From Candidatus Lindowiibacteriota bacterium (lineage in GTDB: Bacteria > Lindowbacteria > 2-12-FULL-62-27), in contig JAHFCY010000223.1 of the NCBI GenBank assembly GCA_023249255.1, forward strand, positions 1 through 5,368: DNA of 5,368 nucleotides, read 5' to 3'. A program made the translations under genes and the position numbers. Shown here piece after piece: positions 1,153 to 5,368 of this stretch (its first letter is position 1; each line of letters begins with the position of its first letter). Below the pieces are notes generated by a model that ran no database searches, was not told the origin of the DNA, and saw only the letters and a list, made by a program, of their open reading frames with translations.

Positions 1153-1197
1153 TCACCTCCTCTCCCCCAATGGGGGAGAGGATTAAGGTGAGGGGAG
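1153..1197. repeat. Palindromic intergenic repeat, family A copy 1
   Basis: The core is a perfect inverted repeat with 10-bp arms (1159-1168 and 1172-1181) around a 3-nt AAT loop. An outer 6-bp stem (TCACCT at 1153-1158, AGGTGA at 1186-1191) is separated from it by a 4-nt bulge on one side. The element lies between the porin 1 terminator and the start of the secreted protein. Its right arm aligns without gaps to the repeat inside the aminotransferase, so the two belong to one family. It reads as a REP-like dispersed element, and the plus-strand translation across it is spurious. Confidence 0.8.
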
Positions 1198-1213: not shown

Positions 1214-1257
1214 CCACCCTCACCCCCACCCTCTCCCGCCGAAGGCGGGCGAGGGGG
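1214..1257. repeat. Palindromic intergenic repeat, family A-related copy 2
   Basis: A second C-rich/G-rich palindrome follows copy 1 after about 16 bases. Its core is CCCGCC (1235-1240), loop GAA, then GGCGGG (1244-1249). The stem continues past one mismatch through 1229-1233 and 1251-1255. Its left flank CCCTCACC (1217-1224) is also complementary to GGTGAGGG at 1187-1194 of copy 1, so the pair can fold as one three-stem unit. This suggests the two palindromes form a composite element. Confidence 0.7.
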
Positions 1258-3055: not shown

Positions 3056-4414
3056 TTAGAACGACACGCCGAGGCCGACCGTCAAAGCATCCGCATCAGC
3101 TTTCTGGTTGTCATTAGATGGGCCGTTCCCATTGCTGAGACCGCCGCCGCCTTCGTCAAACTTGGACCATTCGGCCTTGACCATGGCATTGTCCGCCAGT
3201 TTATAACCGGCAGCCACTGTCCACATATCAGGCTGACCCAAATTGTTGGTAAATCCGGCGACCGTGTAATTCGGATCCAATCGGTTCCAGCGAACCGCAA
3301 GATACGAATTCTCGTCGAAATTGTAGCGACCCTGGGCGCCGTAGTAGTCATACTTGGGGTTGTTGCTGACGCCATTCGCGTTGAGAATTGCAGCCGAGCT
3401 ATCCGCCTTGGCGTCGATATTGCCCCAGAACGCCAAAACATATCCCTGGCCATAGTCATACTTGCCGGAGACTTCCCACATGTCCCGCTTGTAGGCGACC
3501 CCCGTCTGATCGGTGGTTACCACAAGACCCGCCAAGTTGCTGTTGCCCGTGCCGCCAGCGCCCGCCATCAGTGTAGAGTTGATGTTGCTGACCAGGAACG
3601 AACTTCCGACGTTGAGCGGATCCTGATCTCCATCCTTCTTGTTGTCGGACGTGTAGTAGCTGGCCTGCAGAGTGAGGTTTTCCTGCAAGCCGACTTCCGC
3701 GCGGATCGCCCACGACAGATCGTCGTTGGACCGCCTGATCGAATTGGCGCCGGACGGATTGCCGTCGGTGACTGCACCGCCGTTGAGGAGAGCAATCTCC
3801 CACGCCAGCGGTGTGCTGGTCGAACCCATATCAAAGGAGCCCGAGAGAGAAATTCCCTCGTCGCCGCCGTTGATGTCGAGAAGGCTGTTCGTAAGAAAAT
3901 CGTTCTTCATGTTATCCCCGTTGGCCGTGCGCATCGCATACTCATAGCCATAGGGAATGTCGATCGTACCGACTTTGAGATCAAACCCACTGCCCGCGAC
4001 GTCTTTCAACGTCACGTACGCGCGGATCATCTCGACTGCGTCATTGAGGCTGCCGCCATTGCCAAGCGAGGCTATAGCCACGCCGTTGGCATCCGCGGTC
4101 GCGGCCGCTCCGTTGGGAATTGCTCCGCCCAACTGGTTCTGACCGCCGCGCTGATTCTCATGCGACCAGTCGTTGGACGCCCAAAACTTCGCCGTCACGG
4201 AGATCTTGTCCGAAACGTCTCCGTTGACGTAGAGATTGATTCGCGGATCGTTGAAATTGAAATCCTCGTCCAGGTTGCCTTTCGTCGTGTCAAAATCGAC
4301 GTCCTGCGCTGTGACGAGAGCCGCTCCTGTGATCTCAATCTTGGCATGTGCCGCAAGCGGCAACGCCAAAACGAGAGCAACGAGAGCTGTGAAAGCTAAA
4401 AGACCTTTGTTCAT
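3056..4414 (-). CDS. Porin-like outer-membrane beta-barrel protein 2 (paralog of porin 1)
   Basis: This 452-residue protein is predicted to form an outer-membrane beta-barrel pore. Residues 1-24 are a signal peptide (MNKGLLAFTALVALVLALPL, then AAHA), cleaved before K25; the mature start KIEITGAALV is identical to porin 1. The rest alternates amphipathic strands with Asn/Gly/Asp-rich loops and ends in VGLGVSF with the C-terminal Phe. Shared blocks include EDFNFNDPRINLYVNGD (50-66), TIDIPYGYEYA (150-160), KDGDQDPLNVGSSFLV (260-275), YDYGQGYVLAFWG (319-331) and AAGYKLADNAMVKAEWSK (401-418). The main differences from porin 1 are in presumed surface loops: a long Ala/Gly/Asn insert at about 88-125 and longer segments near 281-309 and 335-355. 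Start 4414 begins the signal peptide and sits after the same G-rich ribosome-binding region as in porin 1. Substrate is unknown; an anion or general porin is plausible. It has its own promoter, long leader and terminator. Confidence 0.9.
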   Translation of the reverse strand: MNKGLLAFTALVALVLALPLAAHAKIEITGAALVTAQDVDFDTTKGNLDEDFNFNDPRINLYVNGDVSDKISVTAKFWASNDWSHENQRGGQNQLGGAIPNGAAATADANGVAIASLGNGGSLNDAVEMIRAYVTLKDVAGSGFDLKVGTIDIPYGYEYAMRTANGDNMKNDFLTNSLLDINGGDEGISLSGSFDMGSTSTPLAWEIALLNGGAVTDGNPSGANSIRRSNDDLSWAIRAEVGLQENLTLQASYYTSDNKKDGDQDPLNVGSSFLVSNINSTLMAGAGGTGNSNLAGLVVTTDQTGVAYKRDMWEVSGKYDYGQGYVLAFWGNIDAKADSSAAILNANGVSNNPKYDYYGAQGRYNFDENSYLAVRWNRLDPNYTVAGFTNNLGQPDMWTVAAGYKLADNAMVKAEWSKFDEGGGGLSNGNGPSNDNQKADADALTVGLGVSF

Positions 4415-4419
4415 GGAGT

Positions 4420-4437
4420 GAACTCCCCCTTTGCCGT
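4420..4437 (-). promoter_or_regulatory. Ribosome-binding region of porin gene 2
   Basis: The minus strand carries GGCAAAGGGGGA followed by a short spacer to ATG 4414, matching the stretch before porin 1. This shared block decides the start in favour of 4414 over the ATG at 4447. Confidence 0.7.
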
Positions 4438-4510
4438 TAAGGTCCAAAGTGTTCTCACTTTCGAACTGCTGACTGAAATGTATGTCAGAAATTCCACTGT
4501 GCTTCCTGTT

Positions 4511-4866: not shown

Positions 4867-4909
4867 TTTGGGCATCCCGCTTCGCGCATCCCTGTCACTA
4901 TCGCGGGAT
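4859..4909 (-). terminator. Possible terminator of the aminotransferase gene
   Basis: On the minus strand ATCCCGC (4903-4909) pairs with GCGGGAT (4874-4880) across a 22-nt loop, followed by GCCCAAA and T8 (4859-4866). The order stem then T-run fits an intrinsic terminator. The large loop and the 7-nt gap before the Ts make it weaker than the two porin terminators. It overlaps repeat family C. Confidence 0.45.
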
Positions 4910-4925
4910 TCCTACATCCATGTAG
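4887..4925. repeat. Dispersed repeat family C, copy 2
   Basis: The element matches 2932-2971 over most of its length and shares the core CGCGGGATTCC. Its terminal hairpin CTACA (4912-4916), loop TCCA, TGTAG (4921-4925) carries a C-G to T-A exchange relative to copy 1 that keeps the pairing. It ends directly against the stop codon (4926-4928) of the aminotransferase. Confidence 0.7.
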
Positions 4926-5368
4926 TCATGGGCGGAGGGAAGCGAGAAACCGGGTTATGCGGTCCAGGCCTTTTTTGATGTCGGATTCGGAGATGGCGTA
5001 GGAGAGGCGGATACAGGTTGGAGCACCGAAACCGACGCCGGAGACGGCGGCGACGAGTTCTTTGTCGAGAAGGGCGAGGCAGAGGTCGTCGGCGTTTCCC
5101 CTCATCCCAACCTTCTCCCCCAAAGGGGGACAAGGGGAGGTTGAGGGGGACAAATAGGCCGAAACGTCTGGAAATACGTAAAAGGCACCCTCCGGCTTTG
5201 GGCAGATGACGCCGGGGATTTGGGCCAGGAGCGACAAAATGAGGTCACGGCGTTTTCGGAAGGCTTCGACCATGGGGATTATGTCAACATCGCCCCGGCG
5301 GAGGGCCTCGAGGGCGGCGGCCTGGCACATGGTTGAGGGATTTGACGTTTCGTGGCTCTGAATCCGGC
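4926..5368 (-). CDS. Aspartate aminotransferase-like class I/II PLP enzyme, C-terminal part (N-terminus off the right edge)
   Basis: About 146 C-terminal codons are present, and the frame is open through the right edge. The likely reaction is cytosolic transfer of an amino group between an amino acid such as aspartate and 2-oxoglutarate. Family hallmarks are IQSHETSNPST at the left-most residues, CPKPEGAFYVFPDVSAY, and IRLSYAISESDIKKGLDRI near the end; the Arg of IRLSYA is the expected substrate alpha-carboxylate ligand. The PLP-binding Lys would lie upstream of the window. The normal loop between the DVSAY motif and DDLCLALLDKELVAAVSG is replaced by about 21 residues (LSPSTSPCPPLGEKVGMRGN and A) encoded by a palindromic repeat, in frame and without a stop. 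The usual VPGSAFG segment reads VSGVGFG. Other subgroup Iγ aminotransferases are possible, so no gene symbol is given. The stop abuts another repeat. Confidence 0.88.
   Translation of the reverse strand, partial: RIQSHETSNPSTMCQAAALEALRRGDVDIIPMVEAFRKRRDLILSLLAQIPGVICPKPEGAFYVFPDVSAYLSPSTSPCPPLGEKVGMRGNADDLCLALLDKELVAAVSGVGFGAPTCIRLSYAISESDIKKGLDRITRFLASLRP
5098..5148. repeat. Palindromic repeat (family A) embedded in frame in the aminotransferase gene
   Basis: The ends are 7-bp inverted repeats, CCCCTCA (5098-5104) and TGAGGGG (5142-5148). Inside is a hairpin of 11-base arms (5111-5121 and 5125-5135) with one mismatch and an AAA loop. Read on the minus strand, its right half aligns without gaps to copy 1 at 1164-1195 with 25 of 32 identical bases. 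Both copies are read in the same frame in this orientation: SPPMGERIKVRG in copy 1 and CPPLGEKVGMRG here. Confidence 0.82.

Follow-up and report, generated by a model that had tools for sequence, protein, structure and literature searches.

A palindromic triplex-type repeat, very probably inserted in frame, in a variable loop of an aminotransferase gene from the phylum Lindowbacteria

The locus

The window considered here is the whole stretch of DNA that was analysed, 5,368 nucleotides from Candidatus Lindowiibacteriota bacterium, and it coincides exactly with one contig of a source genome of 3.35 Mb in 366 contigs. At one end it holds the C-terminal part of an aminotransferase gene (4926–5366, minus strand; 146 codons plus the stop), truncated by the contig end. 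The product matches the class I/II aminotransferase profile of Pfam (PF00155, E 1.3e-11) and the profile NF041091 (E 3.2e-26), and its best match in the PDB is 1j32 (E 3.6e-24); from these best profiles and solved relatives it is classified as a subgroup I-gamma aspartate aminotransferase. On the 3' side of this gene, and like it on the minus strand, are two tandem porin-like genes (1340–2641 and 3056–4447) with about 75% DNA identity along extended stretches, for which searches of Pfam and NCBIfam gave no match. A third porin-like relative sits after the aminotransferase ortholog of a related genome (locus L099 of G001, described below). A 37-nt direct repeat, CATCCCTGACGCTCCCGCGGGATTCCCACATCCCTGT, is present at 2932–2968 and 4887–4923 (84% identical), downstream of the second porin-like gene and of the aminotransferase gene, and the segment GGGAGCGCGCGCGTCTCGCGCGCCCTGTGGCGGGCAGGATGCCCGCGCTCC (2866–2920), between both porin-like genes, resembles another dispersed repeat type.

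Anatomy of the insert

A sequence-only reading of this DNA placed a palindrome in frame inside the aminotransferase gene at 5098–5148, and those coordinates proved exact. The 51-nt repeat is on the minus strand and is read within LSPSTSPCPPLGEKVGMRGN. The 7-bp inverted ends that had been described are present (CCCCTCA at 5098–5104 and TGAGGGG at 5142–5148), the inner 11-base arms of the proposed hairpin, CCTTCTCCCCC and GGGGGACAAGG, are paired at all but one of their 11 positions, and the frame is open across the repeat, with neither stop nor frameshift, as had been read. Its size needed correction: about 21 residues had been claimed, and the net insert is 17 codons. Self-complementarity extends to 19 of 25 positions, the top score among all 51-mers of the window. 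Compared with dinucleotide shuffles, the segment folds unusually well both as RNA (z -4.0; 0 of 200 shuffles as good) and as DNA (z -3.3; 1 of 200), and the predicted fold of the 71-nt RNA around it has an energy of -39.5 kcal/mol.

The class II intrastrand-triplex plan consists of a pyrimidine stem, a loop, a purine stem, a short loop and a mirror purine stem (Holder et al. 2015, PMC4666352; Maher et al.). On the coding (minus) strand, 5098–5135 forms a core of this design, CCTTGTCCCC-ctttg-GGGGAGAAGG-ttg-GGATGAGGGG, that is, Y10-loop-R10-3 nt-R10, with one mismatch. The rule for BoxC elements allows stems of 6–15 nt, loops of 1–6 nt and at most one mismatch when the stem exceeds 7 nt; here the stems are 10 nt long and the two loops 5 nt and 3 nt. 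The insert thus fits a BoxC/PIT/TM-type purine-motif intrastrand triplex repeat, for which a DNA triplex is predicted. Within the window the plan occurs in two repeats only, the gene insert and an intergenic repeat, and 40 first-order Markov resamplings of the window contained no triplex motif. A search of Rfam with the repeat gave no match.

Dispersed copies

The sequence-only reading was also right in expecting further genomic copies, some of which are in frame inside genes. The nearest in the window's genome lie at C273:3443–3482 (90% identical) and C336:20–58 (88%). Allowing up to three mismatches, the pattern CCCCTCATCCCNNCCTTCTCCC matches 16 times in this genome against three times for the reversed control, and a wider family with the pattern CTCACC..CCTCTCCC has about 20 copies there. 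One member of the wider family is the intergenic repeat of the window (1158–1196, plus strand), of the TCCTCTCC..GGGGAGAGGA..AGGTGAGGGG subtype. This repeat, some 4 kb from the insert, had been taken as its match; it is indeed of the same kind (77% identical over 35 nt), but it is of a different subtype and more distant than the copies on C273 and C336. It forms the first half of a two-part element, the second half of which (1214–1257, minus strand; CCCTCACCC..CCCTCTCCCGCC type) is inverted relative to the first, and this paired arrangement recurs on contigs C17, C200 and C363. The inverted pair, about 20 nt apart (1156–1260), makes a composite of roughly 105 nt, there as on those three contigs, and the composite is often bounded by GTGACTATTCAC-like and GTGAACAGTCAC-like ends in the fashion of a MITE.

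Repeats of this class are not confined to the phylum. An exact-match search found CCCTCACCCNNNCCCTCTCCC in 33 of 192 genomes, spread over many families, and its reversed control in none. Outside the phylum, 43 type-A copies were read in four genomes, one of them within a long candidate reading frame that matched no family; in this small sample, in-frame copies look uncommon. In one genome of another phylum, G184, many BoxC/TM copies lie about 120–200 bases from contig ends (for example C72:117, C74:117 and C95:117), and from these positions the repeats seem to break assemblies.

The loop with and without the repeat

Excision of exactly 5098–5148 keeps the frame and gives ..FPDVSAYLSNADDLC.. 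at the junction. The stretch from GAFYVF to LLD, 33 residues with the insert, is then 16 residues long, which is its length in 1j32 as taken from alignment coordinates. Between two aligned blocks 1j32 has 5 residues and the window protein 22. Among 24 homologues from other genomes the GAFYVF-to-LLD stretch spans 17–26 residues, most having about 25 (a 25th, L040, was misparsed by the length pattern and is excluded from this range), which bears out the earlier statement that this loop varies in length in the family. Neither the PDB homologues nor those from other phyla have the segment itself, and within the phylum the one ortholog found has a different repeat in place of the window's loop sequence. 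Since loops of typical homologues have about 25 residues, partial loop replacement is possible, and the repeat may have displaced about eight residues rather than being a pure addition. At the junctions, TATTTGTC-insert-AAACGCC, inspection showed no target-site duplication. An AlphaFold model built from two sequences had a mean pLDDT of 35.6, too poor for placement of the loop.

One of the three genomes that make up the phylum sample is G001, Candidatus Lindowbacteria bacterium RIFCSPLOWO2_12_FULL_62_27, which belongs to another genus of the same family and phylum as the source genome. Its aminotransferase ortholog shares 70% identity with that of the window and is likewise followed by a porin-like gene; it is the only ortholog found in the phylum, also by a contig scan of the genomes, and the third genome had no ortholog gene. 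The same loop of the G001 protein reads STPPLTKGGQGGVP, encoded by CCCCCCCTTACCAAGGGGGGGCAGGGGGGGG, a member of a family with copies scattered over G001 (41 forward pattern matches, with some sites counted twice, against none for the reversed control) and nearly missing from the window's genome. Both inserts lie between the SAYLS and N[AS]DDL codons and both are of triplex type. On these sequences, one loop is occupied by two different predicted triplex-type repeats in two genera.

In-frame copies in other genes

At least 14 further genes of the two genomes carry in-frame repeats, amongst them GlmM, MetH, FolC and GH94. In the window's genome, a NirB-like reductase on C336 has the same subtype in the same frame as the aminotransferase (GEKAGMRGE versus GEKVGMRGN), FolC on C277 has a degenerate copy with two mismatches, and an RHS protein on C65 a further copy. 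In G001, the copy in GlmM directly follows DGDGDR and adds 8 residues relative to 7ojr; others are in MetH, in the C-terminal domain of RibD, in an MFS-spermidine synthase, inside the supersandwich domain of GH94, between the halves of a siroheme reductase, in an ApbE/FMN-binding protein, in an RHS protein and in four FlgD_ig proteins, the site being the same in three of them. The RibD copy is near the gene end; as the RibD domain match extends across the repeat, it is included in the count. Copies at a transglutaminase (L105), an FGGY kinase (L047), a UDG (L053) and a NarJ-like gene (L064) lie near gene ends or upstream and are not counted. The GH94 phosphorylase gene (L135; G001:C40:45600–48200) has a second triplex-type repeat near its start. 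The triplex plan, with a second loop of 3 nt and at most one mismatch, fits every intragenic copy examined except that in FolC. The subfamily C7TT..AAG7CAG8 is read as PPLxKGGxGGV in three enzymes.

It should be noted that most copies are non-genic. About 159 were scored in G001, with gene context taken from a self-trained codon model and family matches, and only 11–15 combine an in-frame position with coding signal on each flank. Where the coding signal on both sides is on the same strand, 11 of 12 copies are in frame (binomial against one third, p 5e-5), and other thresholds give 14 of 18 (p 1e-4) and 15 of 24 (p 3e-3); these figures are conservative in one respect, in that the out-of-frame cases include junctions of neighbouring genes, and are weakened in another, in that a single event accounts for the three FlgD_ig copies and so enters the count three times. 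Amongst the type-C copies of G001, four of six independent C2 sites are genic as against four of 27 C1 sites (Fisher p 0.02), a split that is suggestive only, the gene calls having been made by hand.

Interpretation and alternatives

We consider it very probable that a dispersed BoxC/PIT/TM repeat was inserted in frame, without target duplication, into a length-variable loop of the aminotransferase. The length of 17 codons and the freedom from stops in this frame mean that the gene stays intact; if so, we propose, the cell would make an enzyme with 17 extra residues, which are probably exposed. In the mechanism envisaged, the repeats would spread in the manner of selfish mobile DNA, and a genic copy would persist only if its length and frame kept the gene whole and the site tolerated the added residues, selection having presumably removed copies that were out of frame. 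The enzyme with the insert would be active, and this loop, being tolerant of inserts, could have been hit or replaced more than once. As to what might move the repeats, mobilisation by RAYT proteins was considered and rejected: the three genomes contain 24 Y1_Tnp genes, and no repeat lies within about 1.5 kb of them.

A broader proposal is that the triplex repeats of the phylum are protein-invading selfish DNA, that two families entered the loop independently in the two genera, and that the subfamily C7TT..AAG7CAG8 is mostly genic. It is offered tentatively, and we think it somewhat likelier to prove wrong than right. An alternative is that a single insertion pre-dated the split of the genera and that, in each lineage, the local repeat family afterwards replaced it or it came to resemble that family, in which case the two repeats would reflect one insertion followed by conversion. 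The placement of both repeats between the same codons and their common triplex type would be expected from such a history, and the presence of type-A and type-B-like repeats in both genera implies that the families are older than the split; however, length, arms and sequence are not the same in the two inserts, each insert looks like the repeat families found in the genome that carries it, and the G001 subtype is nearly missing from the window's genome. An ancestral insertion is a possibility that we take seriously but doubt.

It could also be supposed that the insert has been co-opted functionally, for example as an mRNA hairpin or DNA triplex by which expression or recombination of the gene is tuned, or as a loop with a new binding role. 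The predicted mRNA hairpin is strong (-39.5 kcal/mol, z -4.0), and BoxC/TM DNA is known to adopt a stable triplex form in vitro and, in E. coli, to mark loci that are unstable (PMC4666352). Such recruitment is nevertheless improbable: the genes that carry repeats are functionally unrelated and the encoded peptides differ, the repeats sit in linkers and variable loops, and no regulatory effect was found for BoxC/TM elements (PMC4666352). That this is an ordinary G/C-rich surface loop, palindromic and repeat-like by chance, is hardly credible: loop length does vary within the family, and the genome has a high G/C content, but no other 51-mer of the window is as palindromic, resampled windows yielded no triplex motif, the dispersed copies exceed the reversed control, and similar repeats are present in the sister genus and in many unrelated genes.

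An in-frame insertion of a dispersed repeat remains our preferred reading of the aminotransferase loop, and its wider interest lies in the record that it offers. BoxC/TM repeats are abundant and widespread. In-frame copies in recognisable enzymes, unlike intergenic ones, form a record of insertion that can be aligned, with target site, frame and length all legible.

Comparison with known systems

In-frame palindromes in genes are already known from the RPE and REP families. What seem to be new, in a literature search that covered few subscription journals, are the presence of BoxC/TM copies within conserved enzymes and the occurrence of two sequence families in a single loop. The repeats described here share with BoxC/PIT/TM elements the same block plan and a multi-copy, dispersed distribution over many phyla, and the intergenic copies of the window's genome closely match the E. 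coli consensus, CCCTCTCCC..GGGAGAGGG..GGGTGAGGG. The inserts in the aminotransferase genes, that of the window (CCTTGTCCCC..) and that of G001 (C7TT..), are sequence variants of this consensus. A further difference is one of position: in E. coli BoxC/TM elements have been described between genes only, all 23 copies being intergenic (PMC4666352), whereas here there are in-frame copies within conserved genes.

The MITEs ERIC, RU and Correia/NEMIS are likewise small non-autonomous repeats that can be fused in frame to genes, but they are about 100–200 bp long and mostly have terminal repeats and target duplications (Delihas, PMC2229807); the insert in the window is 51 nt long, and terminal repeats or target duplications of the MITE kind were not seen in it. 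In Neisseria, a MITE variant with an open frame is often intragenic and a variant containing stops is intergenic (Delihas, PMC2229807), and the C2 and C1 types may, by analogy, parallel these open-frame and stop-bearing variants. The GTAG/CGTC REPs are also short palindromes that can be intragenic, and they provide the closest precedent for the shared loop, in that recB carries a REP at roughly the same position in two Xanthomonas species, but the REP differs between them (Di Nocera et al. 2013, PMC3733652). They differ from the present repeat, the ends of which are CCCCTCA and TGAGGGG, without a GTAG or CGTC tag, and which has no Y1 transposase gene flanked by repeats.

The comparison drawn in the sequence-only reading was with the RPE, palindromes found in frame in Rickettsia genes (Ogata et al. 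2000, 2002; Claverie and Ogata 2003). It stands as far as the process is concerned: both are palindromic and dispersed, and both occur between genes as well as in frame in conserved protein genes. It does not extend to the repeat itself, which is of BoxC/TM type and not RPE-like. RPE are about 100–150 bp long and specific to Rickettsia, whereas the present repeat is 51 nt long, G/C-rich, of triplex type and from an unrelated phylum; the two are set apart here by description, on length and host. The in-frame copies in recognisable enzymes show that palindromes enter proteins, as RPE do in Rickettsia, in a phylum far removed from that genus too, and that the repeat involved there is unrelated to RPE.
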